The notes below the pieces were generated by a model. That model saw nothing but the letters and a program-made list of their open reading frames with translations. It searched no databases and was not told the origin of the DNA. A stretch of DNA of 64,000 bases, from NCBI GenBank assembly GCA_013373175.1, contig JABXII010000006.1:62001-126000 (forward strand). Reading direction: 5' to 3'. This DNA is from Campylobacteraceae bacterium. GTDB lineage: Bacteria > Campylobacterota > Campylobacteria > Campylobacterales > Arcobacteraceae. The number at the start of each line of letters is the position of its first letter. Position 1 is the first letter of the stretch. Positions 22,457 to 44,508 of this stretch are shown here, one piece after another. Made by a program: the position numbers and the translations under genes.

Positions 22457-22861
22457 ATGATAGATAAAATTGATTTTCATATAAAAGAATTAGACTCAAT
22501 GAAGAAATATCCTAAAGAACTTTTTTATATAGGTAATAAAAATATTTTACAAAAAAGAAAAGTTTCAATTGTTGGTTCTAGAAAACCTAATTTATATTCA
22601 CAAAAAATGACCCACTTACTTTCACAAGGTTTAGCACAAAGAGATATAGTAGTTGTAAGTGGTGCAGCTATTGGCGTTGACAGTATAGCTCACAAAGCAG
22701 CAAAAGCACAAAATACAATTGCAGTAGTTGCAAATGGTTTAGATATAAAATATCCAGCTATTAATAAAAGACTAATTGAAGAGATTGAAACTAAAGGCTT
22801 AATGCTTAGTTCATATAAAGAAGGTGAAAAAGCTAGAAACTATAGCTTTGTACAATTCTAA
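22457..22861 (+). pseudogene. dprA: dprA, 5' fragment (interrupted by the integrative element)
   Basis: DprA loads RecA on incoming single-stranded DNA during natural transformation. This fragment keeps residues 1-133: SIVGSRKPNLYSQ (the GxRxPT-type motif), VVSGAAIGVDSIAHKAA and the nucleotide-fold ends. It breaks in ARNYSFVQ, and the frame then enters the element and ends at once with F-stop. The rest of the gene is at 45,612-45,983. Joining codon CAA (22,853) to AGA (45,612) gives YSFVQ-RNEIVVSLGE, exactly the conserved DprA sequence, and a 256-residue protein of normal size. The Rossmann fold is cut, so the fragment should be inactive. Confidence 0.93.
22854..22861 (+). repeat. Left flanking direct repeat (att-like) AATTCTAA
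   Basis: The same 8 bases occur at 45,604-45,611 at the other end of the element. The stop codon created at each dprA break lies in the repeat. For Tn554-type elements a short core of about 6 bases (here TTCTAA) at both ends is expected. Confidence 0.7.
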
Positions 22862-22863
22862 GT

Positions 22864-22964
22864 AATATTGAATAGTTGAATATAAATATCAAATCAGTAA
22901 TATTATATAGCTTTTATTATAACTCCTAACTAATAATGTTTCTACTAAGTAGTATTGAATATTA
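22864..22964. repeat. Left-end recombinase-site-like repeats
   Basis: AATATTGAAT (22,864), GTTGAATAT (22,875) and ATTGAATATTAG (22,954) lie within 100 bases of the left border. They are inverted relative to AATATTCAAT / AATATTCAAC near the right border. The rest of the stretch to 23,139 is AT-rich and shows no gene. Confidence 0.55.
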
Positions 22965-23139
22965 GAAATATGTAAATTTATACTATAAAAACCATTACTG
23001 GCTACAATTATTTTTTCTATTAAAGGAAAGATTTAATCATTAAAGATATCTTAAAATACTAATCTTATATGAGCTTTCTAATTTCAGGCTCTTATAATTG
23101 TAGTTAAAGTTAAACTATTTTCTCTTTTTTAAATATATC

Positions 23140-24015
23140 TTACTCAATAATTGATTTTAAAAATTCTGAATTTGACAGTTTAAACATTTTTTGACATTCT
23201 TGTATATTTTTCCTGTAATTATAGAAAGTATAATCCTTTTTTGGTTCTATACCATTTTTAAAAACGATAAAAGAATATAACTCGTCACAAACTTCATTAC
23301 TATGAAGCATATTGTTCACTTCAATATAATTTGTTAACTTTTCAAAAGACGTTATATATATTAAAGTACTTAAAATAATAGTAATAAAAAGATTCAAATA
23401 TGCAATTCTTTTTTTTGTAAATATTTCAATTAAAAACTTTCTCGATTTAAAAAGTAAAATTACATAAAGTATTAACAATAATAAAAAAATGAATGACATA
23501 GATATTATTAGAATTAAGCCAAAATATTCTTTTTTATTAACACTTATATAATAAAGGCTTAAGTCTACAGAAAGTATTAAACATAAAAAAATTAACGGCA
23601 TAAAAATATTAAAGAGTTTTATATTTAAAATTATAATTGATTTAAAATACTCAAAATTAATACCTTTTTTTAAAAGAAAAAAGAAACATATTACTATTGA
23701 ATAAATTAATAATATAGAAAAATTTTTCAAATAAAAAGGTATAAAATAAAATTCATTTATCATACGATTAAAATCATAATGTAAAACCTCGAACTCCACA
23801 CCTAAATAAACATAAAAGTTAATAGTTAATATCCCTACTAAAGTATATGCAAACTGTAACCATATATCAGATAAGGTGCATCTTGTACTTAGTGAATGTT
23901 TTATAATCTCTTTAATTGTTTTACCACAATATACAATATATATGAAAGGTAAAAACCATATTTGTTTTATATACTGTTCTACACTATTATCACTATAAAT
24001 ATTACTCTTATGCAC
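23140..24015 (-). CDS. Multi-spanning membrane protein, last gene of the CBASS-containing operon
   Basis: The 291-residue protein is strongly hydrophobic from about residue 15 to 215. It has roughly five or six membrane helices (WFLPFIYIVYC, LQFAYTLVGILTINFYVYL, ILLIYSIVICFFFLL, IFMPLIFLCLILSVDL, LILIISMSFIFLLLLILYV, LFITIILSTLIYI) and a charged C-terminal tail of about 60 residues. No family was recognised. The start overlaps the end of the preceding gene by 8 bases, so the two are probably co-translated. A membrane-disrupting or sensing role in defence is possible but is only a guess from context. Confidence 0.7.
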   Translation of the reverse strand: MHKSNIYSDNSVEQYIKQIWFLPFIYIVYCGKTIKEIIKHSLSTRCTLSDIWLQFAYTLVGILTINFYVYLGVEFEVLHYDFNRMINEFYFIPFYLKNFSILLIYSIVICFFFLLKKGINFEYFKSIIILNIKLFNIFMPLIFLCLILSVDLSLYYISVNKKEYFGLILIISMSFIFLLLLILYVILLFKSRKFLIEIFTKKRIAYLNLFITIILSTLIYITSFEKLTNYIEVNNMLHSNEVCDELYSFIVFKNGIEPKKDYTFYNYRKNIQECQKMFKLSNSEFLKSIIE

Positions 24016-24619
24016 TAATTTCTCCTATTAATTTGCAAAATATTTTATAATCAAATACAGGATTACTTTTTATAATTCTATTATAAAGAGTTTGTCTTGT
24101 TTGTATTTTTCTCCAATCAATATAATATTCAATAACACGCACATCCTTCATAAAATATGTTGCATCATACATCTGTAAAAAACTACCAATAATTGTTCTA
24201 TGATGCCCTTCCAATATAGCAGCAAATTTTCTATTATAAATATCATTAAATACATAATATGTTGGCTTATCAGTTCTATTTTCGTTAAAACCATTAAAAA
24301 AATACTCAGGATCTTTTTTAATAGAAGTATCTATGATTTTTTTTATATTACTTTTTTCTTTTAATATAATATCAAAAGAATTTATAGCACTACAATAATA
24401 TGGTTCATGCACAGTTGCAATAACATTTAATGGCTTTAAATTGTAATTCTCGTGAGTGATTTTTTTAACTTCATATTTCTCTATTAATTCATTAATTGTC
24501 AAGTCTCCAAATTTACTACAATGAAAATCTAATAATGTTTTATTATAATTAATATGAGTTTTACAAGAATCAATTAAGTGATTTATTAAACTTTGAGCAT
24601 TAGAACTTCTAATAAACAA
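24008..24619 (-). CDS. ParB/sulfiredoxin-fold-like protein
   Basis: The 203-residue protein contains AAILEGHHRTIIGSFLQ near residues 133-149. This resembles the ParB-type signature (Gly-x-His-Arg at the start of a helix) of the ParB/Srx nucleotide-binding fold. That fold occurs in ParB CTPases, sulfiredoxin and several nucleases or kinases. The preceding strands (NVIATVHEPYYC...SFDIILKE) fit the fold. No helix-turn-helix follows, so it is not a partition protein. It overlaps the membrane protein gene and follows the cysteine-protease-like gene by 20 bases. The fold assignment is tentative. Confidence 0.6.
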   Translation of the reverse strand: MFIRSSNAQSLINHLIDSCKTHINYNKTLLDFHCSKFGDLTINELIEKYEVKKITHENYNLKPLNVIATVHEPYYCSAINSFDIILKEKSNIKKIIDTSIKKDPEYFFNGFNENRTDKPTYYVFNDIYNRKFAAILEGHHRTIIGSFLQMYDATYFMKDVRVIEYYIDWRKIQTRQTLYNRIIKSNPVFDYKIFCKLIGEISA

Positions 24620-24639
24620 TTCATTTACATTTATTATAC

Positions 24640-25215
24640 CTATCCTTTGACTTTACATTTTTTTATTAATTCTTTTAATCCATTATTTAATGCTTCAATT
24701 TGTGTATTTGACAGAATATATTTTGGGATATACTCTAATTCCTGTGGTATGTGATCTCTTTTAGCTATAAATGCACCTTTATTTTTTCCAAAACTTGATG
24801 AAAAATATTTATTTAAAATATGAGATTCATCTTGTTCTCCTGCTGTTCTAAAAATTGAGATATCTGCAACAATACCGTTAATTTCAATCCAACAATGACC
24901 ATCCCATATATCTTTAATATATGTATCTGAATTTATATCAGTAGGTAAATTACTATTGCAGCTAAATATAGTATTGCCAAAAAGTTTTAAGTCACCTGCT
25001 ACAACAATGGCAGGAATTGAATAATTTTCATTCAATATATATGCCCACCTTGCACTCATCAATGCACATAATGCAGGAAGTATTGGAACTTCTGTTAATA
25101 GATCTATTCCTGTTTGTTTTAATATCTCAATATCATCATAAATATATTCCATATATTCTTTTTTTTCTTCAATACTTTTATATTTTTCAATTAATTTATA
25201 TATCATCTCATCCAT
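24640..25215 (-). CDS. Transglutaminase/papain-fold-like protein with a Cys-His-Asp triad
   Basis: The 191-residue protein shows the order of a transglutaminase-like cysteine peptidase fold. Cys50 lies at a helix start (LPALCALMSARWAYIL), His107 in a strand (DGHCWIEINGI) and Asp118 in the next strand (VADISIF). The local pattern GHCW-IEI-NG-xxxDxS is typical of bacterial transglutaminase-like proteins such as BtrH/McjB-type enzymes. The substrate is unknown. It begins 2 bases after the nuclease stop, so it is in the same transcript. It could process a neighbouring protein, for example the nuclease; this is inference. Confidence 0.65.
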   Translation of the reverse strand: MDEMIYKLIEKYKSIEEKKEYMEYIYDDIEILKQTGIDLLTEVPILPALCALMSARWAYILNENYSIPAIVVAGDLKLFGNTIFSCNSNLPTDINSDTYIKDIWDGHCWIEINGIVADISIFRTAGEQDESHILNKYFSSSFGKNKGAFIAKRDHIPQELEYIPKYILSNTQIEALNNGLKELIKKCKVKG

Positions 25216-25217
25216 TT

Positions 25218-25886
25218 TTATCTTCTCAATACTTTACAATCAATTTCATGATCTCTTAATTTATCACTTTTATAATCAATATCTAAAATATTTTCATATT
25301 TAAAACATCTCTCAAATTTTGCATCATTGTTATAATATATTCTATACAAAGTTGTTGGTATTACTATATCATTTCCTATTTTGTTATTAAGGTTATCATA
25401 CTTAGCTATTGATATAGAATTTATATAGCCTAACTTTTGAGCTAGTGTTCTTCCATATCTTTCTACTTTAGTCCAAGTTCTTTGATTAACCTTTGCACTT
25501 TGAGGTATTATATTTGCCATTGTATAGGCTTTATTTAATGCTTTTTTATTATAATCAAAATCTGCATCTGCAACTATAAAATGACCTCTGTTCCAATCTT
25601 TGCCATATCCTGTATAATCTTTATATTTAGTCCTATATTTCATAGGGATAGTTTTTTCATTGTAAAATCTAGGTCTTTTTTTAATATCATCTTTAGTATT
25701 AACTCTATCTCCATAAAGAGTTACCCAGCCAGATAGAGCACCTTTATATTTATAGCTATAACAGATTTTATATAGTTGTTTATCAACTATTTGGTCACAT
25801 TGTTTTGCATCAACATAATCTTCTAAAGATGCTGCATAAGAAATACTTGTTAAAAGCAGTAAGATGAATAATAATTGTTTTTTCAT
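25218..25886 (-). CDS. Secreted DNA/RNA non-specific endonuclease (NucA/EndA type)
   Basis: The start is placed at MKKQLLFILLLLTSISYAA, which has AAAGGC upstream; an in-frame ATG five codons earlier is less likely. The signal peptide is clear. The beta-beta-alpha-metal core is DWNRGHFIVAD (His102 is the general base; the usual Asp of DRGH is Asn). It continues with TMANIIPQSAKVNQRTW (Asn134, metal) and ERYGR (Glu142). Secreted nucleases of this family on Campylobacter elements (dns type) reduce natural transformation. It lies 22 bases after the DUF6602-like gene and inside the CBASS-containing operon, but the signal peptide sends it outside the cytoplasm. Confidence 0.88.
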   Translation of the reverse strand: MKKQLLFILLLLTSISYAASLEDYVDAKQCDQIVDKQLYKICYSYKYKGALSGWVTLYGDRVNTKDDIKKRPRFYNEKTIPMKYRTKYKDYTGYGKDWNRGHFIVADADFDYNKKALNKAYTMANIIPQSAKVNQRTWTKVERYGRTLAQKLGYINSISIAKYDNLNNKIGNDIVIPTTLYRIYYNNDAKFERCFKYENILDIDYKSDKLRDHEIDCKVLRR

Positions 25887-25908
25887 AATTAAGCCTTTCA
25901 TTATTCAA

Positions 25909-26730
25909 TTATAACTCTTGATCTATTGGAAAACCAATTGAAGAAGAATATGCATTTAAATCAATAGCAGAAACTGTTCCTATTGCTTGTTGAAGGTATC
26001 TTGTTAATTGAAGAAAAAAAGTAACTAAAGAATTTTCAGTAGAACTAAAAATTATCTTGTTTGCAGTTCTTGTATTATAGTAATTGAGGTATCTTTCTTC
26101 AAACTGTTTTTTATCTTTTAAATCAGTATTTTCTTCTCCATTATAATCAATATAAAAACTTCCATAATCTGCTATACAACCAATATCTAAAGCACCTAAA
26201 CCAGATTGAGCTTTTAAATGTTTTTCCAATGTAGTATTATTCTCATGAGTAAAACTATTTGATGTAGCTAAAATACCTCCTAGTATTTTTGTAAAAGGTC
26301 TTGGAGGCATTTTTACACCAGAATTAATCATATTAGTTGATGTTCTTTTTAGTTGCCTAACACTTTTGATTTTATCTGCTGCATATTTAATATAGTCTTT
26401 ATTTATCTCTGGTTTAACTTCAAAAATAGCAAATACTCCCTCTGCAGGAATATAATGAAACCCATTTTGAGAAAAAATAAATGGCGTATACCAATTATCA
26501 TAAATTACTATATCTATTTGATCACTTGTATTTCCCTCATGATCAATAACTATCGCTTTGTCTACACTATACCTATTTGGAAGATATTTTTGTAGCCATT
26601 CAATCCATGCATTTTCAAGAGCATCACCTTTTGAGCCTGGGTGCTCTATAAATTCTCTATTCGTATTTAACTGTGCAGTCATTTGTTTCTGCAAACCTTC
26701 AAATAATGATTCTAAACTAACTTTATTCAT
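25909..26730 (-). CDS. DUF6602-like PD-(D/E)XK nuclease-fold protein, possible CBASS effector
   Basis: The 273-residue protein begins with a helical segment, then GDALENAWIEWLQKYLP. The restriction-endonuclease-like core follows: SDQIDIVIYD (metal-binding Asp), then FAIFEVKPE (E-x-K) about 35 residues later. These fit the PD-(D/E)XK pattern of the DUF6602 family. Its start overlaps the Cap3 stop by 8 bases, a strong sign that it belongs to the CBASS unit. No cyclic-nucleotide receptor domain (SAVED, STING, NucC-like) was recognised, so if it is the effector its ligand-sensing part would be new. It may instead be an accessory nuclease. Confidence 0.7.
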   Translation of the reverse strand: MNKVSLESLFEGLQKQMTAQLNTNREFIEHPGSKGDALENAWIEWLQKYLPNRYSVDKAIVIDHEGNTSDQIDIVIYDNWYTPFIFSQNGFHYIPAEGVFAIFEVKPEINKDYIKYAADKIKSVRQLKRTSTNMINSGVKMPPRPFTKILGGILATSNSFTHENNTTLEKHLKAQSGLGALDIGCIADYGSFYIDYNGEENTDLKDKKQFEERYLNYYNTRTANKIIFSSTENSLVTFFLQLTRYLQQAIGTVSAIDLNAYSSSIGFPIDQEL

Positions 26731-27187
26731 ATCTATGTAATCCTTTATTGTTATAAAAATAAATTGAAAACTCTTCCACCTTATTTTTCTTTATTCCTAA
26801 AATTAAAAGTATTGGATTTTTTATATTAACAGTGTCACTTTCTGCTATTGAAATCATAGCATTTAAGTCTGTACTACTATACATTGAATTTCCATTTGGA
26901 TGAGAATGCCATTCTCCAATATAATATTGTTCTTTTTCTTCATATAGTTTTTTTAATGTTTCTGATAGATTACTTACACTTCTTTTATAAAAGAAAAGCG
27001 ATTTTTTTTGTATTTTGGGAGTTATAAAATCTCTTATATAGAGTGTTCTAAAATCTGATGAATAGTTACCTATTAATATACCTCCTGATTCATTAGGAAA
27101 GTTCTTAATTGCTATATTAGTAAGTTTATTTAATAATTCATCTTCTATAGATAAAAAAAGCTTATTATTTTTATTTATAAAATCCAT
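26723..27187 (-). CDS. cap3: CBASS deconjugase Cap3 (JAB/MPN metalloprotease)
   Basis: The 154-residue JAMM protease has Glu33 in NESGGILIGNY and the zinc motif GEWHSHPNGNSMYSSTDLNAM (His94, His96, Ser104, Asp107). In type II CBASS, Cap3 removes Cap2-attached CD-NTase from target proteins and so limits signalling. It starts inside the Cap2 stop (TAATG) and overlaps the DUF6602-like gene by 8 bases. Short single-domain form as usual for Cap3. Confidence 0.92.
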   Translation of the reverse strand: MDFINKNNKLFLSIEDELLNKLTNIAIKNFPNESGGILIGNYSSDFRTLYIRDFITPKIQKKSLFFYKRSVSNLSETLKKLYEEKEQYYIGEWHSHPNGNSMYSSTDLNAMISIAESDTVNIKNPILLILGIKKNKVEEFSIYFYNNKGLHRYE

Positions 27188-28830
27188 TAATACTCTTTTA
27201 TTTTTAGATTTGCTGAAGTTGAATCTGATTTAATTACAAAATTTCTTTTTTCTATTTGCTCATTAAAAATTAAGTTTATTTGTTTTAATGCTATTTGAAT
27301 TAAGGCATTAATATCATTATATGAAGCTTTAAATGTTGGACTCCAACAGCCAGTTGGCTCATATAAATTTTTTGTATCATTATTTAATATATTAGAGAAT
27401 TGTTTGATTACAAAGTCATAGATATTAGGATAAAAAGCACAAACTAACTCTTTAGCATGGTTTGTAATGGATAAGTTTATAATTTCACAGTCTAGTTTTA
27501 ACGAGTTAAATATATACATTAAATCATTATCAGTACTACAATCAAATACAATATCATAATCATTTATATTTTGAATCAAACTTTCTTTTGCATCATTATC
27601 ATTATAAAAAGATTTCATTACCCATTCAAAATATTCATCTTTTATAACGTTTACATTAACAAAAGGTGAAATTGCATTTAAAATACTCTCTAATTCTAAT
27701 GTTTTATCAGTAAGACCATGTTGAAAAAAGTATTCTGATCTACATACATTTTCAATTTCTTTAACATCAAAATCAGCAATATCAATATTTTTACAACCTC
27801 CCCTTGTTAATGTTTTTGCAACATTACTACCTATTGCCCCTATACCTATTATTAATATTTTACTATTTGTAATTTTATTAGAAAATGCTCCTCTTCCAAA
27901 AAAATAGTTATATGAGATATCTCTAGTTATGGCCCAAGTTATTTCTTCATTTTTCAATTCATAATTCAATTTTTTTGATACTGTAATAGTTAAACTCGTT
28001 CTCTTTACAGGTATTTTAATAAGATTTATAATAGCAACTTGCCAATGAATCTGATTTTCAACTGTTTTATAACCAATAAATAAAGGAATATTTAAATTCT
28101 TTTTTTTTAAATCATATAGAAATCTTAAAAATTCTTGTGAAAATAAACCTTGAAAATCCTTCCAATTCTTTAGAATAAATCTGTCATATTTTACAGGTTG
28201 TTCTTTTATAAAGTAGAATAAACCCTTTGCAGTATCTTCAGAATCTATATAATGTTTGTTAAATTGACAAAAAGGTTCTATATTATTTATTTTAAAACTT
28301 TTAACTAAAAAATTTTCATTAACTTCTTTTTTATAAATTGCTTCATTAATTTTAATTAAAGAGACATCACCAAAGTCACCTTTTTGGAAAGAGTACTCTA
28401 CCTTTGTAAATAGAAAAGTGATATACCTTCTATCCAACAAGTATTCAGGGACAATAATATGTTCATAATTGAAATCATGATCTTTATTTATATAATATTT
28501 TAGAATCCAAGCCTTTAAAGAATTAAAGTCAATAATTAACTTTTTTTCTATATTTGTATTATGAGATGTATGAATACATATATTTCCACCTTCCATTACA
28601 TGATTACAATTTAATAAATCTTCATTAATAAACTTAATTGATTCATTATCTCTATCTTTAAATGGGTACTGTGCAGTTATTATAAATTCAAAATCTAACC
28701 CTTTGGGTAATTCATCAAATTTAATTTGGACTTTTCCTTTTAAAAATAGTTCATACTCTTCTAAATAATAAAGTTCAGATACAAAATCTATTGAAGATAT
28801 TGTTTTTCCAATTAATTCTTTATTGATCAT
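27187..28830 (-). CDS. cap2: CBASS conjugation enzyme Cap2 (E2-E1 fusion)
   Basis: The 547-residue protein has an N-terminal E2-like domain with the catalytic cysteine in VMEGGNICIHTS (Cys85). The central region (about 180-320) is followed by a ThiF/E1 adenylation domain: ILIIGIGAIGSNVAKTL nucleotide loop (327-341) and acidic DFDVKEIENVCRSEYF. The putative E1 cysteine is GCWSPTF (Cys495). In known type II CBASS, Cap2 attaches the C-terminal glycine of the CD-NTase to cellular proteins and primes second-messenger synthesis. It lies 9 bases after the CD-NTase gene. All key residues are present. Confidence 0.93.
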   Translation of the reverse strand: MINKELIGKTISSIDFVSELYYLEEYELFLKGKVQIKFDELPKGLDFEFIITAQYPFKDRDNESIKFINEDLLNCNHVMEGGNICIHTSHNTNIEKKLIIDFNSLKAWILKYYINKDHDFNYEHIIVPEYLLDRRYITFLFTKVEYSFQKGDFGDVSLIKINEAIYKKEVNENFLVKSFKINNIEPFCQFNKHYIDSEDTAKGLFYFIKEQPVKYDRFILKNWKDFQGLFSQEFLRFLYDLKKKNLNIPLFIGYKTVENQIHWQVAIINLIKIPVKRTSLTITVSKKLNYELKNEEITWAITRDISYNYFFGRGAFSNKITNSKILIIGIGAIGSNVAKTLTRGGCKNIDIADFDVKEIENVCRSEYFFQHGLTDKTLELESILNAISPFVNVNVIKDEYFEWVMKSFYNDNDAKESLIQNINDYDIVFDCSTDNDLMYIFNSLKLDCEIINLSITNHAKELVCAFYPNIYDFVIKQFSNILNNDTKNLYEPTGCWSPTFKASYNDINALIQIALKQINLIFNEQIEKRNFVIKSDSTSANLKIKEY

Positions 28831-28839
28831 AAACTATTT

Positions 28840-29937
28840 TCAACCAAACCTAGTATCTGGTGGAACTGAAGCTAATGAAGCACTTCCTTCTTTTACTCCA
28901 TATCTATTTTCTGAATTATCTTCTTCAAATTCTTCATTCATCGGAAAATATATTTTTATATCATTTTCATCATCTTCAATATTTTTAATAATTCTTCTCA
29001 TATCATTTGAGAATTCTTCTCTTTCATATTCAGTAAGTGTTTCAATAACATTATTATTTGAATTACCAGGATCTTTTAATGTGAAGTTTTCTTGATTTAC
29101 ATTATTTTCTATATACTCCATTACACTTTTTAATTGTTCCCATAAATTGCCATTAATATATGATTTATCAAAAGCTTTTATAGTTATTAATTCAATTAAA
29201 AAAGACTTATACTTTTCTGAATTTCTATATTTCCATATTTTTAATAATCTAATAATCTTTCTTTCATTCTGTTTAGCTTTAATATGTTGAATTTGAGCAT
29301 CAATATTTGTTTGAATATAAGTGTTTTTAGCAAGTAGACCAAATTGTGAGTTAACATATAAATTTAACTTTTTGTCTTCTATATATTTATCTTCATTTAG
29401 TTCTCTTCCTGGAACTATATCCAAATTAATAACATCTCCATCTTCATCTGAATAAAATTCAATACCTATTGAAACTTTTTGTTTTCTAACTGTTGCAACA
29501 TCATAATACTTTTCATAAAGAAGTTCATATACATCATCAAATAGTTCTTCAAGTGTATTAAAAGAGCTTCTTTTGAATGGCACTACAACATCTAAATCAA
29601 ACTTACAATTAATTGCAGTAGATTTTGCATAAGAACCTGAATTTAGAGGATTATATATTTTCCCTTTATAGTTACTTTCAATTAACTCTTTTACTTCTTT
29701 TCTTTTATCTTGATATTTAGATAACAACTCATCAATATGTGCCATTCTATGTGAGTCTAACACCCTTTGTAAATAGTCTTCTTTCGATTCTAACAATTCA
29801 TCTCCTTTATTCCATATCTTATCTATTACATACAAACCAATTAGAACATATCCAAAAAGTCTCAAGCTTTTATACTTGTCATTTTGAAAAAAATCTTCTA
29901 TTTTTTCTTTTATTGATTCTATTTCTTTTAACTTCAT
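28840..29937 (-). CDS. CBASS cyclic oligonucleotide synthase (CD-NTase)
   Basis: The 365-residue nucleotidyltransferase has GSYAKSTAI (101-109) and FDLDVVVPF (Asp114, Asp116). The third acidic residue lies in VINLDIVPG (Asp173). These are the core motifs of CD-NTases. The end of the chain is a low-complexity tail closing with PPDTRFG, so the last residue is glycine, as needed for Cap2 conjugation. An N-terminal hydrophobic stretch (about 25-42) is unusual and may be a helix of the fold or a membrane contact. The product and clade cannot be fixed from sequence. It lies 54 bases after the SIR2-like gene. Confidence 0.92.
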   Translation of the reverse strand: MKLKEIESIKEKIEDFFQNDKYKSLRLFGYVLIGLYVIDKIWNKGDELLESKEDYLQRVLDSHRMAHIDELLSKYQDKRKEVKELIESNYKGKIYNPLNSGSYAKSTAINCKFDLDVVVPFKRSSFNTLEELFDDVYELLYEKYYDVATVRKQKVSIGIEFYSDEDGDVINLDIVPGRELNEDKYIEDKKLNLYVNSQFGLLAKNTYIQTNIDAQIQHIKAKQNERKIIRLLKIWKYRNSEKYKSFLIELITIKAFDKSYINGNLWEQLKSVMEYIENNVNQENFTLKDPGNSNNNVIETLTEYEREEFSNDMRRIIKNIEDDENDIKIYFPMNEEFEEDNSENRYGVKEGSASLASVPPDTRFG

Positions 29938-29991
29938 TCATCCACTTACTAATAATTTATAATATTAATTAATATTATTATACTATCATAT

Positions 29992-31149
29992 TCATACATT
30001 GTTTTTAATAAGTCTCTTTCTAGATAAATCTCGAAAAGTTTGATTAAATTTTATATCCATCTTTTTATTTTTTTTGTTTAAAAAATTTAAAAAACCTTTG
30101 TTTTGTATTTCTACTTGATCTGAAATATGTTTAAAATCATTTGGAATTTCTTTAATATATGGATTAACAATGATTATCTTTCTCTCAGTAGAAAATGCTA
30201 GCCAATCATAAACTACACTGTTTATGTGTTTATCTTGAAAGCTGTACCCAATACAATACAACTCATTAACATAATTTATATGTCCTTTAAAAATTTTAAA
30301 AAACCAATCATCCATATTATGAGATACTTTTGATGAGTATTTATGTTTTCCCGACATAATTGTCATTCTTAAAAACTGTAAAACATTATTTTCATCATAA
30401 TATGTAATTTCATTTGTACATTTAACACCTTGTTTTATAGTAGGATCATTAGAAATAAGTTGATTTATACCTTTTATTAGGGTACTATCATTCCCAATAT
30501 TGTGTGCTAATTTTAAATAACTTTTTCCATCTAAGTAAGTAAATATATCTAAAGAACCATGTAGTTTAACAAGATTAATTCCTGCTTCATTATAAATAAA
30601 TTTAAATCTATTCTTTTCCATATCCTCTCTAGATAACTCTTCAAACTTAATTCCAGAAATTTCTTTATATGTATTAAAACCACACTTTAGTGGTATTTGA
30701 TAATGTTTTGCAATCATTTCAATTATTAGATCATGGTTTAAACTAAAAATCCAAAGTGGTTTTTCTGAGCAAAAGTTTTTAATTTCTTCTAGCAGATATA
30801 ATCTTTCATTGATAAATTGTTCATTATTAGTGTGTCTTTCTAATAGAAGGATAAAAACTGCTTCTAAATACTTTCCCAATACTGCATACCATTCTTGATA
30901 AAGTTGATTATTTCCTCTAGTACGATTTATCTCCACTTCTATTCTTCCAATAATATCTTCATAGTTCATAGAATTATCATTTAACAAGGGATATAAAACT
31001 TCTTCAATCTTTCTAGAGACTTTATAATAAGGTGCATTCCAGTTTCTTAAAATTGACCTTTTAAATTCAATAGTTAATTCATCAACTAGAGGTAATCCTA
31101 ATTCATAAGAAGCTCCTGCTCCAAGTAAAAATCCAGTAGTTCTAGTCAT
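29992..31149 (-). CDS. SIR2-like NADase candidate, first gene of the CBASS-containing operon
   Basis: The 385-residue protein starts with TTGFLLGAGASYELGLP (NAD-binding GAGAS, 10-14). IFSLNHDLIIEM (Asn138, Asp140) and LVKLHGSLDIF (catalytic-type His197) follow, then LYCIGYSFQDKHIN. This is the signature order of defence SIR2 proteins (SIR2_2 type), which hydrolyse NAD+ when triggered. The C-terminal 100 residues are unassigned and could hold the activation surface. It is the first gene of the operon with AGAGGA at its start. A TATAAT box lies 30 bases upstream. It may be the CBASS effector, although a recognised cyclic-nucleotide receptor domain is absent. Confidence 0.85.
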   Translation of the reverse strand: MTRTTGFLLGAGASYELGLPLVDELTIEFKRSILRNWNAPYYKVSRKIEEVLYPLLNDNSMNYEDIIGRIEVEINRTRGNNQLYQEWYAVLGKYLEAVFILLLERHTNNEQFINERLYLLEEIKNFCSEKPLWIFSLNHDLIIEMIAKHYQIPLKCGFNTYKEISGIKFEELSREDMEKNRFKFIYNEAGINLVKLHGSLDIFTYLDGKSYLKLAHNIGNDSTLIKGINQLISNDPTIKQGVKCTNEITYYDENNVLQFLRMTIMSGKHKYSSKVSHNMDDWFFKIFKGHINYVNELYCIGYSFQDKHINSVVYDWLAFSTERKIIIVNPYIKEIPNDFKHISDQVEIQNKGFLNFLNKKNKKMDIKFNQTFRDLSRKRLIKNNV

Positions 31150-31179
31150 GGTATTCCTCTATAATTAATTAATATAATA

Positions 31180-31185
31180 ATTATA
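31180..31185 (-). promoter_or_regulatory. -10 box (TATAAT) of the SIR2/CBASS operon
   Basis: On the minus strand TATAAT lies about 30 bases before the SIR2-like start, with an extended TATG upstream. No good -35 box is visible, so the promoter may be extended-10 type or activated. It is in a 150-base divergent region shared with the plus-strand Xre pair. Confidence 0.5.
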
Positions 31186-31249
31186 CATACTTCTTAATAG
31201 TATCATGATAAGTATTTTATTTTGTAATCTAGTTAATGTATTTATTTTT

Positions 31250-31278
31250 TTGAGCATTATATTTAAATGTGTTATGAT
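31250..31278 (+). promoter_or_regulatory. Promoter of the Xre-type pair
   Basis: TTGAGC, then 17 bases, then TATGAT, a near-consensus sigma-70 promoter. The transcript would start near 31,285. This excludes the upstream in-frame ATG at 31,267 and supports ATG 31,303 as the start of the next gene. Confidence 0.65.
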
Positions 31279-31302
31279 ATAAAAAATCATAAGAGTACTG
31301 TA

Positions 31303-31698
31303 ATGAGTAAAAGTAAAATAAGAATAAATCCATCATTGAAATACAAAATAAAGAGAAGAGCTAATAAAGTTGGTATAGACTTACAGAATTTATACAAAGT
31401 AGCCAACTTAGATAAAAAAGATGTTATAAGACTTTTAAATTCTGAATTTACTTCAAAAAATTCAATTGAAAAAACAACTCAAATATTAGGTCTTAACTCT
31501 TATGGGAAAGAGATTAAATCTGTCAACCAATTAAGAAAAGATAGAGCTAGGTCTAAAGCAATTAGAGTTGTATCAATGGTACAAGACACTTCATCTTTAG
31601 AAGAACTAGGCTTAGAATCTATGGCAATTAAAAGAATGATTGTTAGAACTGAAAAAGAATTTTTAAAAGGTCCATATAGTTCAAGGCTATGGAAATAA
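31303..31698 (+). CDS. Xre-type antitoxin-like DNA-binding protein
   Basis: The 131-residue protein has an N-terminal helix-turn-helix region of Xre type (about 10-65; LDKKDVIRLLNSEF) and a conserved-looking tail. SMVQDTSSLEELGLESMAIK and a closing SSRLW fit antitoxins whose C-terminus contacts the partner toxin. It lies 1-28 bases upstream of the next gene, depending on the start of that gene, and is divergent from the CBASS operon. It could also repress that operon through the shared intergenic region, as CapH does in other CBASS loci; this is inference. Confidence 0.65.
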   Translation: MSKSKIRINPSLKYKIKRRANKVGIDLQNLYKVANLDKKDVIRLLNSEFTSKNSIEKTTQILGLNSYGKEIKSVNQLRKDRARSKAIRVVSMVQDTSSLEELGLESMAIKRMIVRTEKEFLKGPYSSRLWK

Positions 31699-31726
31699 TT
31701 TGAGTAATGAATTATCAGAGGAATTA

Positions 31727-32335
31727 ATGAAGGATCTACAATTTAATGATAATATGAATATATCTATCTCAAAACACGCAATTAAAAGAAGAAAACACTA
31801 TACTCCAATAGACAAAGATATTTTAATTAATCTAGTAAAGCAAATTAATGAAAAGTATCGCATCTCAAAAAAAGATAATAACACATATAAAATAGCTCAC
31901 AATGGTGCGATTGCAATCATTAAAAAAACTGATAACTCTTTACTTTTAGTTACTGCATATGGTTTTAAAAGATATGATTATAGAATTGACAATACAAACT
32001 TTAAAGTCTCAATAGCTCTATCAATACAAAAACGAAAGAAAATTAGAGAAGATAACAAAGGTATAATACACAAAATATATAGAATAAACTTTTTAGGTAA
32101 AAAAGTTGAGTGTGGTTCAATATCAGATATTTCAAAGAGTGAACACTCAAAAGATAAAAAACAAATTGATAACTTTAAGTATAAAATAGTTTTAAATGGA
32201 AAGTTATTCATAAAATTTCAAAATATTCCTATGAAACAAAATCATTTGTACTTTAATAATTTTGATGAGATATCTAATATTGCACATTTTGAAAATGATG
32301 TATTTATGTTGAATGATTTTACAAGAAACAATTAA
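31727..32335 (+). CDS. Toxin-like partner of the Xre protein, function unknown
   Basis: The start is taken at ATG 31,727, which has AGAGGA 4 bases upstream; a TTG at 31,700 in the same frame overlaps less well with a ribosome site but cannot be excluded. The 202-residue protein begins with ISISKHAIKRRKHYTPIDKDI, an Ala-x-x-Arg/His pattern seen at the N-terminus of small RNase-like toxins (DUF4258/BrnT-like). The rest matches no family I know and has a C-terminal extension of about 120 residues. It is translationally next to the Xre-type gene, so a toxin-antitoxin pair is likely. Confidence 0.5.
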   Translation: MKDLQFNDNMNISISKHAIKRRKHYTPIDKDILINLVKQINEKYRISKKDNNTYKIAHNGAIAIIKKTDNSLLLVTAYGFKRYDYRIDNTNFKVSIALSIQKRKKIREDNKGIIHKIYRINFLGKKVECGSISDISKSEHSKDKKQIDNFKYKIVLNGKLFIKFQNIPMKQNHLYFNNFDEISNIAHFENDVFMLNDFTRNN

Positions 32336-32393
32336 TATATTTAGAATTATTATTTAAATATAATTTATAAACTTAAAAGAGAAGGAATATTAA

Positions 32394-32957
32394 TTGAGCA
32401 TTTATGAAAAAGCTTTTTTTATGCTTGTAGGAGGTGTTTTAGTTTCTATAATAAATCATTTTTATGTGAAAAAAAGAGAACGAGAAAATGAGATACGTAA
32501 ATATTTATTTCAAATTGCTAACAATATGAGAACACTTCAATTTAAATACACTAAATCTTATAACTTCTTTGTAGAAAATAACTTTAAAGAGGGACAAAAA
32601 GCAAGAAGTGATTTTTTGAAAATTTATAATGAAACATATAATTTAATATATTTTTATTTTGAAGAAATTGCAGAGATGTACACTTCTGAAATGACATTCG
32701 TAGTAGATAATTTGTATAAAATGGAAGAACTATATAAAAAAAGAATTAAAAAAGATGAACTTAATATAAAACGAAATGAAATAAATGAATTTTTGTTTGA
32801 GGACCAATATCTTATTGGAGAAAATAAATTCTTTTATGAACTCTATGAATCAATAAAAATCAAATTAAAATCTCCTCTTAAAATAATTGATTTTAATAAA
32901 ATCGATTATGATGACATTTTAAAGTATGACCCTAGTAATACTAGACAAAGGATGTAA
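32394..32957 (+). CDS. Membrane-anchored helical protein of unknown function
   Basis: The start is a TTG with AGAAGGA 6 bases upstream. The 187-residue protein has one N-terminal helix (FFMLVGGVLVSIINHFYV) followed by KKRERENEIRKYL. The rest is a helical cytoplasmic body with many aromatic and charged residues. No known motif is seen. It follows the Xre pair in the same direction after 58 bases and may be part of that transcript. Cargo of the element. Confidence 0.6.
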   Translation: MSIYEKAFFMLVGGVLVSIINHFYVKKRERENEIRKYLFQIANNMRTLQFKYTKSYNFFVENNFKEGQKARSDFLKIYNETYNLIYFYFEEIAEMYTSEMTFVVDNLYKMEELYKKRIKKDELNIKRNEINEFLFEDQYLIGENKFFYELYESIKIKLKSPLKIIDFNKIDYDDILKYDPSNTRQRM

Positions 32958-33011
32958 CACTGTCTACAGGTTGTTGAATTTGTTATTATAACTCTTTTCT
33001 TTGTCTCATTC

Positions 33012-33051
33012 TATAGGTTATTAAACAAGTTATAAATATCTTTATAACTAA
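33012..33051 (+). repeat. 40-bp imperfect direct repeat, copy 1
   Basis: TATAGGTTATTAAACAAGTT followed by a shared AT-rich tail occurs again at 34,187-34,226 with 34 of 40 identical positions. A shorter partial copy (ACAGGTTGTTGAA) begins near 32,964. It lies between genes and may mark past recombination in the cargo. Confidence 0.6.
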
Positions 33052-33106
33052 TTTTTAGAATTATTATTTCTCATTTTTGTATCCTAAATTTTGCTGACAT
33101 ATTACT

Positions 33107-33835
33107 TCATCTTGTCTTCCAAATATTAATATATTTACTAGGTACTCTTACAAAATTATTATTTTGAAATAAATTAAACTTTTTTAAAACCCATTCTATT
33201 ATTATATATTTTCTTTTAGTAGATATTTTTTTTGGTTCCTCACCTTTTTCATAGAAATACTCGATTTCATACTTTTCACATACGATTCTAATAGTTTTTT
33301 CTTTTCTTGATACAAATACCCCTTGATCGTTTTTTAATTTTTTAAAAAATGACTTAATATTTGGGTCTAAATCATATCTATCTCGAATAAGAACTTGTTT
33401 TAATTTTGTTTTATTATTAGCACTAATCCAACAACATGCACCAACTAACCTATGATTTCCATTAGAACAAGTTAAAAGTCCATCATAGTCTATAAATCTC
33501 AATGTATTTGTAGCATTATCTGCTGGAAAATTTTGTAACTTAATATCACTTTCAAAATAATCAAATACTTGATTAGTCCATCCCTCTCCAGTTATCCATT
33601 CATTAACTAGTTCTCTCCAAGTTCTTACATCCTCAATCCATTTATCACTTCTGCTCAATGCAACTATATTATAAATAGAAACATCATCATAATAGTCTTC
33701 ATTTTCAGTATATATAGTAAATTTATCTAATATAAAATTTATATCAGAACTATTAACTACCTGTTCCTCAAGAAGTTCATTATTACTATTTAATACAGCT
33801 TCTCTAAGTTTTTCAATCGGTTTTTTTTCAATCAT
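33107..33835 (-). CDS. ParB-fold-like protein, orphan cargo gene
   Basis: The 242-residue protein contains LLTCSNGNHRLVGACCW (residues 120-136), matching the ParB/Srx-type Gly-Asn-His-Arg helix start. A preceding strand and helix run from SDKWIEDVRTWREL to TNQVFDYF. No helix-turn-helix partner region is seen; the basic C-terminus (TKRKYIIIEWVLKKFN) could bind nucleic acid. It is transcribed alone on the minus strand between two noncoding stretches. Fold call is tentative, function unknown. It is the second ParB-like gene in the element and does not closely resemble the first. Confidence 0.55.
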   Translation of the reverse strand: MIEKKPIEKLREAVLNSNNELLEEQVVNSSDINFILDKFTIYTENEDYYDDVSIYNIVALSRSDKWIEDVRTWRELVNEWITGEGWTNQVFDYFESDIKLQNFPADNATNTLRFIDYDGLLTCSNGNHRLVGACCWISANNKTKLKQVLIRDRYDLDPNIKSFFKKLKNDQGVFVSRKEKTIRIVCEKYEIEYFYEKGEEPKKISTKRKYIIIEWVLKKFNLFQNNNFVRVPSKYINIWKTR

Positions 33836-34278
33836 TTATATCCCTTATATTAAAATTTATTGATTAATTTTAATTACCTATCACTTAACCCTTCATCAAG
33901 ATATTTGATGATAGGATAAATAAAAACTCTAGAATTTGTCCTTTACCAATTTTTATTTCAGCGGTTACATTTATGTTATCTTCTAGATATCTCTTTTATT
34001 CTACTAAAAAGCTTATTAGCATATAATCTCAAATGAAGTTAAAAAATAAATTACCAAAAAATTAGCTTCAGCTCACCGCCTATCAGTAAAAAATCAAATT
34101 ATATTATCAATTATATACTATCGACATACTTTATTTGTATTCAAATTTTAGATTAAGATTTTATTTTATATCTATTTTTCATAAGGTACAGGTTGTTAAA
34201 CAGTTTATAAATATTTTTATAACTTATCTTTATAACAATTTGTACATCATCTTTTTTGTTTTATTTCTTCTTGACAAA
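33836..34278. other. Intergenic region without a clear gene
   Basis: The stretch is AT-rich with stop codons in all frames. It holds a short dyad CATCAAGATATTTGATG near 33,894-33,910 and the second copy of the 40-bp repeat. The plus-strand frame from 34,135 is phenylalanine- and isoleucine-rich and covers the antisense of the gene remnant, so it is not taken as a gene. Confidence 0.6.
34187..34226 (+). repeat. 40-bp imperfect direct repeat, copy 2
   Basis: Partner of the repeat at 33,012-33,051 (34 of 40 identical). It lies about 50 bases beyond the 3' end of the truncated second trypsin-NACHT gene. Confidence 0.6.
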
Positions 34279-34389
34279 TCAAACTATAATGACTTCTTCT
34301 TTTTTAAAGAGCATAAAAATATCTTTTACTTTATCTTCAATTTTAACTGTACATTTGCATTTGAGATGTTCTATCAAGGAATTATTCAT
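34279..34389 (-). pseudogene. 5' remnant of a second trypsin-NACHT gene
   Basis: On the minus strand a 36-codon frame begins MNNSLIEHLKCKCTVKIED. The large trypsin-NACHT protein begins MNNPLIEHLKYKCTVRIEA. The DNA is matched over about 54 bases (34,334-34,389 against 38,924-38,979), then similarity ends and a stop follows. Its ATG overlaps the last bases of the Trypco1 gene, as in a coupled pair. It therefore looks like the beginning of a second paralogue that stood directly after Trypco1 and has been lost, or the scar of a partial duplication. Confidence 0.75.
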
Positions 34390-34693
34390 TTTCCCATTCT
34401 AATGTAACTTCAAAATTTGCAGTACCAGTACCTTTTACTAATAAGGCAGTTAATTCTCCAGATTCTATTCCAAGTGATAATCCCATTTTTAATGATATTT
34501 TTTTTGCTGTTGTTTCCTTTAATGGTTCAATTGTTGAAGCAGCTATTTTTATAATGGTTTTATTGAAATCTTCCATTTTCATTATCATATTTTCATCTGC
34601 AATATCAATCTCACCACCAAAATCTGTAGCTTCCATTTTAATAATAGTGCCATCATCTAATTCTATATTAACAGGCTTATTTTTTTTCTTCAT
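34382..34693 (-). CDS. Trypsin-co-occurring domain protein (Trypco1, CU044_2847 family)
   Basis: The 103-residue beta-rich protein has IELDDGTIIKMEATDF at the start and MEDFNKTIIKIAASTIEPLK in the middle. It ends LSLGIESGELTALLVKGTG, then ANFEVTLEW. This is the profile of Trypco1 proteins, which Kaur and colleagues found next to trypsin-type proteases in NACHT/STAND conflict systems. It lies 53 bases after the trypsin-NACHT-HEAT gene, and its 3' end overlaps a remnant of a second such gene. It probably is a substrate, inhibitor or adaptor of the protease; which of these is not known. Confidence 0.82.
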   Translation of the reverse strand: MKKKNKPVNIELDDGTIIKMEATDFGGEIDIADENMIMKMEDFNKTIIKIAASTIEPLKETTAKKISLKMGLSLGIESGELTALLVKGTGTANFEVTLEWENE

Positions 34694-34746
34694 TGTTACT
34701 CCTTTGTTTTTTATAACAACTAATAAAGTTGTAATTCTAATTTAAT

Positions 34747-37700
34747 TTAGATATTAAATTTTTTTTCATTAAAAAAATTTTCAATATCATCAAAAAATTG
34801 CTTTGTAGCTTTTTCTTTTGAAGAGATTAATTTTCCATCTATAATTATGTTTAGTTTTTCATCTTTAATAAAAAGTGGGTGCTGATCATGAGAAATCTTT
34901 TCTAACAAAATATTAGGGATTTTATTTAAATAGCCATTAATATCTATCTTTACAATGTCTGCAATAGTATCTCTTACACATTCATGTATATTTTCATCTT
35001 GAATTATAGAAAAAAGAGTTTCTAAATGTTCATCATTTAGAATATTTTGTTTAGCTAAATCTTTTGCAATATCTCTTCTTGTAAGGTGAAATATGCTCTC
35101 ATCTTTAAGTATAATAATAAGACTTTTTAATACATTATTATCTTGAATATTTTGTTTAGCTAAAGCTTTTACAATATCACTTCTTGTATAGCTATCAATA
35201 TTCTCATTTTTAATTATGGAAATAAGACTTTCTAATAAATCATTATTTTGAATGTTTTGATGAGATAAAGCGTCTGTAATCTCTTTACTTGTAAAGTTAT
35301 GAATACGTTCATTTTTAATTATGGCAATAAAACTTTTAAATACATCCTTATTATGAAGATTATATTTAGTTAAAGCTCTTTCAATATCTACTCTTTCATA
35401 TCTAGATATACTTTCATCTTTAGTTATATTAACAAGACTTCTTAATAAATTTTTATCTTGAATATTTTGCCTTGCTAAAGCTTTGGAAATATGTACTCTT
35501 TCAAATTGATCTACATTTTCATCTTTAACTATATCAATAAAACTTTTTAATAAGTCCTTATCTTGAATATTTTGTTTAGCTAAAGCTTTGGAAATATATA
35601 CTCTTACAAATTTTGATATACTTTCACTTTTAATTATGGCAATAAAACTTTTTAATAAATCCTTATTTTGAATACTTTGTTTAGCTAAAGCTTCTGCAAT
35701 ATCTCTTCTTGTATATATATTTATACTTTCATCTTTAATCATATTAATAAGATTTTTTAACAAATCCTTATTTTTAGCTAAAGTTTTTGCAATATCTCCT
35801 CTTGTATCTTCATTTATACTTTCATCTTTAATCATATCAAGAAGATTCCTTAACAAATCCTTATTTTGAATACTTTGTTTAGCTAAAGTTTTTGCAATAT
35901 CTCCTCTTGAATATTCATATATACTTTTATTTTTAATTATGGCAATAAAACTTTTAAATACTTTCTTATCTTGAATATTGTGTCTAGCTAAAGATTTTGC
36001 AATATCTCTTCTTGTAAATTCATATATTCTTTCATCTTTAAGTATATCAATAAGACTTTTTAATACTTTCTTATCTTGAATATTGTGTCTAGCTAAAGAT
36101 TTTGCAATATCACCTCTTGTAAATTCATATATTCTTTCATCTTTAAGTATATCAATAAGACTTTTGACTAAATTATTATTTTGAATTTTCTGTCTAGATA
36201 AAACTTTTGCAATATCTCCTCGTATATATTGATTTATACTTTCATCCTTAATTGTATCAATAAGATTTTTTAATACATTCTTATCTTGTATATTGTGTCT
36301 AGTTAAAATTTGTATAGTATATTTTCTTGCATATCCATCTATATTTTTATCCTTAAGCATAAAAATAAGACTTTTTAATACATTATTATCTTGTATATTT
36401 TGTTTTTCAAAAGTGTTTTCAATGTATATTCTATCATATCCACTTAGAGTTTGATCTTTAAGCATATCAATAAGATTCTTTAATAAATCATCATCTTGTA
36501 TATTTTGATCACCTAAAGCTCTTACAATAGCTACTCTTGCATCTATATTTATATTTTCATTGTTAAGCATATCAATAAGATTCTTTAATAAATCATCATT
36601 TATATTTTGATCACATAAAGCTTCTACAATAGCTACTCTTACAACTATATTTATACTTTCATCGCGGAGCATATCAATAAGATTTTTTAATAAATCATTA
36701 TTTTGAATGCTTTGCTTAGCTAAAACTTTTGTAATAGCTTTTCTTACAGCTATTTCTATACTTTTATCTTTAAGTGTGGAGGTAAGGCTTTTTAATATAT
36801 CCTTATCTTGAATATTGTGTCTAACTAAAGCTTCTAGAATAGTTACTCTAGTATCTCCCTTTATCTTTTCATTTTTAATAATTGATATAAGTTCTTCTAA
36901 AAGTTCATCATTTTTAACATAATTAACATTCGAAAATAAATCACGTAAAGGAATATCTTTTCTAATAAATAAATAAATTATATTAATAATATCTTGATTA
37001 GCTTTAGAAATATATGTAGATTGTATTTGATCTTCTTTAATCTCTTTTAAACAATTAAAGATCAATAATGGCTGATATACTTTTGTTAAATCTTTAGGCT
37101 CATCGCCCAAAGAATCTAAAAAAAACTCTTTTTGCTCAATTACACCACCTAAAAAGTAGAAAAAAAGTTGCATATGCGGGAAGTACTTATATGTGTAAAT
37201 AATTTCTTTAAGTTTTGATTCCTCAAGTTTTGAAACATATAAAGCTGCAAAATATTCTTGAAAACTAAGATGCAAAAATTCATAGTTATTTAATACTTCA
37301 CTAACAGATTCTAAATTACTTTTTAAGAATCCTGATTTTAGTACAAAATCACTAAATAAAGTTATCTTATCACCAACAGTTTTTTTTACCATTTTTTTAT
37401 TTATAATAATTGTTTGTTGAATTAAACCTTCATATGCCAATTCTCCTAATAGATTAAAAATATCAGTTTTCTTATTTTGAAGATACTTTGTATCATTTAT
37501 CTTAGTGTATTCGTAAAATATATAATCTATAATATTTGAATATAGATCAGTCATAGTACTATTATTAGTAAAAATATCCTTATACTTTGGGTTATCCCAT
37601 AAAGAAGATATCATTTCAAGCATAAGTGGTATATATGATATTTGTTTAATGTCTAAATTAGTATCTAAATAATTATTCAAACTTTCAGACAAGTCTTTTT

Positions 37701-38979
37701 TATGGTTATAAAATTTATTTACATAATTTACAACATTTTTATTTGTAAATCCAATTGTTTCAAAGTATTGATTTATCTCAAAATTACTTTTATGATAACC
37801 GTAAGGTCTAGAAGTTAAAATATAATTAGGTATATTTTCAATTTCACCTTTAAAATAATTTGCTAATTCAGAATTTAATTCATCGTAACCATCAAATAAA
37901 AATAGAGTTTTAGATAAGTGTGGTTTTAGTTCATCATGTATATTTTTACTTGAGTACAGGTCTATGTATGTTCGTCTGATTAAATTAAAAACTCCATCTT
38001 TTTTTAAGTTTCTAAGTTTTACATAAATCACATACTTAAATTCTTGATATAACTTACCTTTAGCCCAGTTATATACGATATATTGACAAAGAGTTGTTTT
38101 ACCAACACCTGCTTTTCCATAAATCATTGCTCTTGTTTTGTTATCTACGCTAGATTTATTAACTATATCTTCAATATTTATTATTTTTTTTGGTTTTTGT
38201 ATCTCTTCATAATTATTAATTATTGAATCTCTATGAAAATATTTTTCATCTTCTTTTTTATCTTCTTTTTTATCTTCTAATATAATTGCTAGATTAATAT
38301 AAATATCTTCAATGTTTCTTTTATTTTTATCGATTAAAAAAGAGATTGTATTAAATTTATTTAGATATTTAGATTGTAACTTATATTCTAAGGATTCAGA
38401 TAATTCTTGCCATTTACTAATTTGATCTTTTACATCAAGATTTAAATTATTAAAGATAATTTTTGATGTGGAAATGCCACGACCACCTAGGTGAAAGTCT
38501 TTATTGCGGGACCTACTCACAATACCACACACTTTTGAATTTTGAGTATTGAGTATAGCAGAACCACTAAATCCTCCAATAAAATGACCATCTTTAAATT
38601 TTAATAGATCATCATTGCACTCTTCATAGAGGTAAGTTAAAGTATCACCATTTTCTTTAAAGTTTTGAGGAAAACCATAACTGAAGCAAGTATCATTTAT
38701 TTTTATTGTATCATCTAGAGCAACTGAATCCTTATTATTAAATTCATATTCTATTAGAGCTAAATCTATATCAGAGTTTTGATGTTTTTGAATATTATCT
38801 TTATTTAAAATAAACTCTTTATTATTCCAATAAATTTTTATATTATCAGATTTTTTTACTACATGATAACAAGTTAAAATTTTATCTTTAGCAATAAAAA
38901 AACCTGTTCCAATTTTGCCACTAGCTTCAATTCTAACTGTACATTTGTATTTGAGATGTTCGATTAATGGATTATTCAT
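34747..38979 (-). CDS. Trypsin-like protease-NACHT-HEAT repeat protein (STAND antiphage system)
   Basis: The 1410-residue protein begins with a trypsin-like domain (1-175). The triad is His39 (ILTCYHVV), Asp72 (SDIDLALIEY) and Ser138 (GGFSGSAIL). A helical linker (180-275) leads to a NACHT ATPase: Walker A GKAGVGKTT (288-296), Walker B LFLFDGYDEL (359-368), and ILTSRPYG sensor. Winged-helix and helical parts follow, with typical EFLHLSFQEYFAALYV. The C-terminal part is about 19 HEAT-like repeats of 35 residues. Such proteins oligomerise on sensing a phage component and release an effector; here this would be proteolysis. It is expected to be cytoplasmic, with Trypco1 next to it. No signal peptide. 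Confidence 0.9.
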   Translation of the reverse strand: MNNPLIEHLKYKCTVRIEASGKIGTGFFIAKDKILTCYHVVKKSDNIKIYWNNKEFILNKDNIQKHQNSDIDLALIEYEFNNKDSVALDDTIKINDTCFSYGFPQNFKENGDTLTYLYEECNDDLLKFKDGHFIGGFSGSAILNTQNSKVCGIVSRSRNKDFHLGGRGISTSKIIFNNLNLDVKDQISKWQELSESLEYKLQSKYLNKFNTISFLIDKNKRNIEDIYINLAIILEDKKEDKKEDEKYFHRDSIINNYEEIQKPKKIINIEDIVNKSSVDNKTRAMIYGKAGVGKTTLCQYIVYNWAKGKLYQEFKYVIYVKLRNLKKDGVFNLIRRTYIDLYSSKNIHDELKPHLSKTLFLFDGYDELNSELANYFKGEIENIPNYILTSRPYGYHKSNFEINQYFETIGFTNKNVVNYVNKFYNHKKDLSESLNNYLDTNLDIKQISYIPLMLEMISSLWDNPKYKDIFTNNSTMTDLYSNIIDYIFYEYTKINDTKYLQNKKTDIFNLLGELAYEGLIQQTIIINKKMVKKTVGDKITLFSDFVLKSGFLKSNLESVSEVLNNYEFLHLSFQEYFAALYVSKLEESKLKEIIYTYKYFPHMQLFFYFLGGVIEQKEFFLDSLGDEPKDLTKVYQPLLIFNCLKEIKEDQIQSTYISKANQDIINIIYLFIRKDIPLRDLFSNVNYVKNDELLEELISIIKNEKIKGDTRVTILEALVRHNIQDKDILKSLTSTLKDKSIEIAVRKAITKVLAKQSIQNNDLLKNLIDMLRDESINIVVRVAIVEALCDQNINDDLLKNLIDMLNNENINIDARVAIVRALGDQNIQDDDLLKNLIDMLKDQTLSGYDRIYIENTFEKQNIQDNNVLKSLIFMLKDKNIDGYARKYTIQILTRHNIQDKNVLKNLIDTIKDESINQYIRGDIAKVLSRQKIQNNNLVKSLIDILKDERIYEFTRGDIAKSLARHNIQDKKVLKSLIDILKDERIYEFTRRDIAKSLARHNIQDKKVFKSFIAIIKNKSIYEYSRGDIAKTLAKQSIQNKDLLRNLLDMIKDESINEDTRGDIAKTLAKNKDLLKNLINMIKDESINIYTRRDIAEALAKQSIQNKDLLKSFIAIIKSESISKFVRVYISKALAKQNIQDKDLLKSFIDIVKDENVDQFERVHISKALARQNIQDKNLLRSLVNITKDESISRYERVDIERALTKYNLHNKDVFKSFIAIIKNERIHNFTSKEITDALSHQNIQNNDLLESLISIIKNENIDSYTRSDIVKALAKQNIQDNNVLKSLIIILKDESIFHLTRRDIAKDLAKQNILNDEHLETLFSIIQDENIHECVRDTIADIVKIDINGYLNKIPNILLEKISHDQHPLFIKDEKLNIIIDGKLISSKEKATKQFFDDIENFFNEKKFNI
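34910..36905 (-). repeat. Array of about nineteen 105-bp HEAT-repeat units inside the NACHT gene
   Basis: Each unit encodes about 35 residues of the form LKSLIDILKDERIYEFTRGD + IAKSLARHNIQDKKV. Two adjacent units near 35,970-36,180 are almost identical at DNA level and encode 33 of 35 identical residues, which points to recent tandem duplication. One unit near 35,770 has lost four codons (AKNKDL in place of AKQSIQNKDL). Such arrays expand and contract by slippage or unequal recombination. Confidence 0.85.
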
Positions 38980-43141: not shown

Positions 43142-43142
43142 G

Positions 43143-44441: not shown

Positions 44442-44493
44442 TTATCTCCTTGATTTGAAATTTTATTTATTTTAAAAGCACTTGACAAAAAAC

Positions 44494-44508
44494 TTAACAA
44501 TTCGTTAA
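44494..44508. promoter_or_regulatory. Operator-like dyad between recombinase and regulator genes
   Basis: TTAACAATTCGTTAA is a perfect 5-bp inverted repeat (TTAAC/GTTAA, 5-base spacer) centred between the divergent starts. GTTAA also recurs at 44,528. A CI-like protein encoded next door could bind it. Confidence 0.45.

Follow-up and report, generated by a model that had tools for sequence, protein, structure and literature searches.

The window analysed here, a stretch of 64,000 nucleotides, carries a CBASS operon with four further genes directly behind it, for a nuclease, a 191-aa protein with a Cys-His-Asp triad, a 203-aa protein and a 291-aa membrane protein, and the question is whether these genes form a defence or toxin module, an extension of CBASS, or cargo of separate origins. 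The layout given by the first-pass annotation was reproduced from the ORF list of the window: all four reading frames lie on the minus strand (Table 1), with a gap of 22 bases between nucC and the nuclease gene, and gaps of 2, 20 and -8 bases within the four-gene block. An alternative start of the nuclease, at ATG 25901, is possible.

Table 1. Island, interrupted dprA gene, CBASS operon and recombinase genes, with positions as numbered in the window.
Feature	Position	Strand	Evidence or remark
dprA codons 1-133, left piece	22457..22855	+	88% identity to intact 256-aa DprA of G004
Mobile defence island	22856..45611		~22.8 kb, inserted in dprA
291-aa membrane protein	23140..24015	-	GTG start behind AGGAGA
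203-aa G-x-H-R-T protein, rare family	24008..24619	-	TTG start
191-aa transglutaminase-like protein (predicted fold)	24640..25215	-	Cys50-His107-Asp118
Nuclease, exported Endonuclease_NS DNase (predicted)	25218..25886	-	222 aa from ATG at 25886
NucC, CBASS effector nuclease	25909..26730	-	PADLOC NucC effector 1.8e-98; PDB 6p7o NucC 4.8e-48
Cap3 JAB isopeptidase	26723..27187	-	profile matches including PADLOC
Cap2 E1-E2	27187..28830	-	PADLOC E1-E2 6.6e-205
CD-NTase	28840..29937	-	PADLOC cyclase 8.6e-84
SIR2-like protein, first gene of run	29992..31149	-	PADLOC SIR2 models
950-aa large tyrosine recombinase	39708..42560	-	HxxR...GH...Y motif; trio relatives
193-aa protein between recombinases, probable recombination partner	42560..43141	-	conserved beside both recombinases in G018, G088, G075
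432-aa tyrosine recombinase	43143..44441	-	Phage_integrase 2.6e-14; HxxR...GH...Y
dprA codons 134-254, right piece	45612..45974	+	86% identity to same G004 DprA

The gene immediately upstream of the block, formerly labelled DUF6602-like, is nucC, its match PDB 6p7o being the solved E. coli NucC, so that a CBASS effector is already present in the operon ahead of the four genes. A type II CBASS is complete with a cyclase, Cap2, Cap3 and an effector, and the cyclase, the Cap2 E1-E2 protein, the Cap3 JAB protein and the effector were all found within one run. Taken together, the SIR2-like, CD-NTase, Cap2, Cap3 and NucC genes thus form a type II CBASS that includes an effector, to which the four genes have been added at the back. 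The SIR2-like gene precedes the CD-NTase gene by 54 bases and, given this position and the presence of NucC, the operon may have two effectors, SIR2 and NucC.

The four genes would be co-transcribed with the CBASS operon. No terminator-like site was found in 22800-31400 (0 against 0.9 expected), and promoter-like sites were not enriched over shuffles in this AT-rich DNA (73 against 79), so the scan shows no promoter for the block, whether shared with the operon or its own. Base composition does not distinguish the block from its surroundings, the membrane protein gene having the lowest GC (0.199).

All four proteins were searched for relatives, and none of the 96 fetched loci held two of the four genes; likewise, the four were not found recurring together or with CBASS in these loci, and relatives of the 191-aa and 203-aa proteins occur without the other block genes. 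Because the loci were mostly chosen for holding one block gene or a recombinase, and the stretches span about 2-19 kb, this is a fair, not an exhaustive, test of co-occurrence, with tiny samples for the relatives of the 203-aa protein (two genomes) and of the membrane protein (one genome). By sequence comparison, the four genes fit separate cargo and not a conserved module. Of the earlier suggestion of independent cargo behind a shared promoter, the cargo part is borne out by these counts and by the unrelated contexts, whereas the promoter scan stood at chance.

The nuclease belongs to the Endonuclease_NS family (PF01223, 3.2e-29; 102.6 bits against a Pfam gathering score of 23) and also matches EndoG (2.9e-10). 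Its N-terminus, MKKQLLFILLLLTSISYA, is signal-peptide-like, as it is in most relatives in an 18-sequence alignment; together with the family match, this agrees with the first-pass description of a secreted nuclease, and the protein is probably exported. The active-site region reads NRGHF...N...E, and in the same alignment RGH, the metal-site Asn of MANIIPQ and the Glu of KVE align with the relatives. The Asp of the usual D-R-G-H is an Asn (N-R-G-H) in this protein and in its 72-80% identical relatives, a clade that also has extra residues there; because of this variant, nuclease activity is presumed but not assured.

Matches of the nuclease were found in 20 of 150 order-level relative genomes. 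The neighbourhoods of the closer relatives, in Campylobacterota, contain ParA, the T4SS protein TraG, Rad52/Gp157 or a phage integrase, and no mobile-element markers were found around the relatives in three genomes (G019, G110, G130). The nuclease occurs alone on plasmids, prophages and islands, apart from the other block genes, and in the window it is carried by a mobile element, the dprA-splitting island with tyrosine recombinases. The first-pass annotation had also proposed a polymorphic or immunity set, in which a secreted toxin would be accompanied by a processing protease and an immunity protein. The adjacency of the nuclease, the Cys-His-Asp protein and the membrane protein would suit such a set; however, the nuclease combines a Sec-type signal with a bare nuclease domain and has no toxin delivery domain, it stands without these neighbours elsewhere, and the Cys of the protease-like family is not conserved, which makes this reading extremely improbable.

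Among phage and plasmid records, the nuclease comes closest to nucA of Campylobacter CJIE4 (34.5%, 7e-28) and to plasmid nucleases (about 34%). The CJIE1 enzyme, Dns, is a member of another nuclease family. In published work, CJIE1, CJIE2 and CJIE4 all have nucleases that block natural transformation (PMC4372405, PMC10893306, PMC4774983), those of CJIE2 and CJIE4 are reported to cut double-stranded DNA outside the cytoplasm, and tested relatives of the present nuclease are linked to transformation and biofilm effects (PMC4372405). A different role for an exported nuclease would be that of an anti-phage or anti-plasmid barrier, cutting DNA on its way through the periplasm and so adding a line of defence outside that of CBASS/NucC. 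Its place directly behind NucC and the signal-peptide-like N-terminus of most relatives would agree with this role, as would the congener genome G004, where a 43%-identical, predicted exported nuclease follows an operon of DUF1508, E1-E2 and JAB genes in a different island. However, most relatives are on plasmids and prophages without such operons, and those tested are tied to transformation and biofilm effects; the barrier role is therefore considered unlikely. The island that holds this G004 nuclease, on contig 5 (L064, L049, L065), is Tn7-like (TnsB, TnsC) and splits comM.

For the 191-aa protein, the AF2 model is good (pLDDT 83.5), and in it C50 starts the helix 50-65, H107 starts the strand 107-112 and D118 ends the strand 115-118, so that the predicted structure places the previously noted triad Cys50-His107-Asp118 as in a transglutaminase/papain-type triad. 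The best structural matches (VIA-align) were 2hly (Z 8.4) and S. pyogenes TglA (Z 7.7), values near 8 being modest, and other transglutaminase-like enzymes ranked below these. Profile matches to Transglut_core/DUF2026 were weak, with the best at 0.012, present in 5 of 20 family members and none at gathering level. From the model, the structural matches and these weak profile matches, a transglutaminase-like fold is likely, and catalysis by the protein of the window is possible. Relatives were found at 17 genome loci and on three viral contigs, with no recurring partner gene among them. The motif W-D-G-H-x-W is invariant in the family; the catalytic Cys is not conserved, being Ser in three members (L080, L081, L085) and Ala in a fourth (L014).

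This protein also bears on whether the four genes work as an accessory module of CBASS, with, for example, the protease-like protein acting on Cap2/Cap3-type conjugates and the membrane protein serving as a second effector. The transglutaminase-like fold includes isopeptidases and deamidases, and the 2-base gap and 8-base overlap reflect the tight spacing that such a module would have; nevertheless, the loss of the Cys in several family members, the absence of any pair of block genes from the 96 loci and the fact that a type II CBASS already has all its parts in the cyclase, Cap2, Cap3 and effector leave this reading very unlikely. Both it and the polymorphic toxin set were rejected because no recurrence was found in the fetched loci.

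The ParB fold earlier assigned to the 203-aa protein was not confirmed, as searches of Pfam, NCBIfam, PADLOC and PDB sequences gave no match and PHROG a single one at 0.063, hhalign against a real ParB gave 0.4% and a single-sequence model reached a pLDDT of 31.8, leaving only the G-x-H-R-T motif. Clear relatives occur in two genomes only: in G086 as the C-terminal portion of a larger protein of 514 aa with HEYSH (HExxH), and in G055 as two proteins encoded near one gene for an E1-E2-JAB protein and one for an MBL-fold protein. In the 514-aa fusion (L016:8100-9644), a metalloprotease-like part with HEYSHIILGH is joined to the 203-aa-related domain. No match of the 203-aa protein was found in plasmids or phages, and a 242-aa GNHR-motif protein on the same island (33107-33835) is weakly similar to its family. 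The 291-aa protein has about five hydrophobic segments by hydropathy, in keeping with its earlier description as a membrane protein. Its one clear relative, in G033, adjoins a 719-aa ORF that by eye resembles a tyrosine recombinase, and it has no match in plasmids. Scans of viral contigs with the 191-aa, 203-aa and membrane proteins returned three relatives only, all of the 191-aa protein.

The block forms the left edge of a mobile island, with its end 284 bases from the edge, a context that the first-pass annotation had missed, along with the identity of NucC, the insertion in dprA and the inhibition of transformation reported for related nucleases. The island has a GC of 0.246 against 0.28-0.29 in the flanks, and it breaks dprA exactly between codons 133 and 134, with no codon lost and a perfect register relative to the congener DprA (256 aa). 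The genome has no second dprA copy, and the dprA frame is full-length and open in the 12 same-genus relatives checked (12/12). In the genome of the window, comEC and comM have open frames, so that of the competence genes checked it is dprA that is broken. Both recombinases of the 432/193/950-aa trio have the HxxR...GH...Y motif, and relatives of the trio (L067, L069) are inserted in comM of G088 and G069. The island also encodes a 1410-aa NACHT protein (34747-38979) whose N-terminal domain is trypsin-like and which contains repeats; this gene probably serves defence as well. Two further proteins, of 143 aa (31267-31698) and 211 aa (31700-32335), are 90% and 85% identical, respectively, to two proteins encoded about 10 kb apart on the Tn7-like island in comM of G004.

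Here it is proposed, with reasonable though not strong confidence, that the genes following the CBASS operon, at the left end of the dprA island, are a mixture, one for an anti-transformation DNase and the others unrelated cargo. In this proposal, the tyrosine recombinases would have inserted the ~22.8-kb defence island into dprA, and transcription of the four genes, if there is any, would extend that of a CBASS operon that is complete at NucC. The signal peptide would export the nuclease, which would cut double-stranded DNA outside the cytoplasm, and nuclease and broken dprA may together lower natural transformation of the host. The lowered transformation would in turn protect the island from removal by incoming DNA, as in the chromosomal curing model (PMC4774983, PMC11472951); this model and the anti-transformation effect of related DNases are taken from those papers and would apply here by analogy. 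The transglutaminase-like, GxHRT and membrane proteins would be three more pieces of cargo, each from a different source, and nothing seen here ties their action to the nuclease or CBASS. Aliarcobacter butzleri is naturally competent (PMC8308473); counting against the proposal, DprA has been reported as non-essential for transformation in C. jejuni and H. pylori (PMC8308473). If the proposal is true, an apparent new toxin or defence module becomes a testable case of conflict between mobile islands and host DNA uptake, in which a CBASS island disrupts dprA and also encodes a DNase of the transformation-blocking kind. More tentatively, and rather less likely than not, a family of defence islands of Campylobacterota may preferentially enter competence genes, some of them adding an exported DNase, so that a single element would unite phage defence and two separate obstacles to transformation; the targets seen were dprA here, comM in G088 and G069, and comM, with the Tn7-like element, in G004.

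Compared with known systems, the operon has the gene order of type II CBASS with NucC (CD-NTase, Cap2, Cap3, NucC), but differs in the SIR2-like gene in front and the four unrelated genes behind. The 191-aa protein shares its predicted fold and Cys-His-Asp placement with transglutaminase-like/DUF2026 proteins (2hly, TglA); in contrast to these, it has no gathering-level Pfam match and its Cys is not family-wide. Like the Campylobacter CJIE2 and CJIE4 endonucleases (CJE0566, CJE1441), the nuclease is an Endonuclease_NS protein with a putative signal peptide, carried by an integrated element in the same phylum; however, it is about 34% identical to the CJIE4 enzyme and has the N-R-G-H variant, and those enzymes are prophage-borne, whereas it is found on a tyrosine-recombinase defence island in dprA. 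The make-up of the recombinase trio resembles that of SE, GInt and Tn554 elements (PMC10214605), and for SEs a strand-biased circle and a 6-bp footprint have been described (PMC10214605). Element-borne DNases and competence-gene disruption, including CBASS loci within comM, have been described previously (PMC11472951); no description of dprA serving naturally as the target for an island of this sort was found in the literature searched. As in the Acinetobacter comM islands (AbaR/Tn7-like, CBASS-bearing), defence cargo is placed in a competence gene (PMC11472951), although the present island targets dprA, uses Tn554/GInt/SE-like recombinases and adds a predicted exported DNase, and the dprA insertion could thereby carry what is known of comM over to a further gene and a further phylum.
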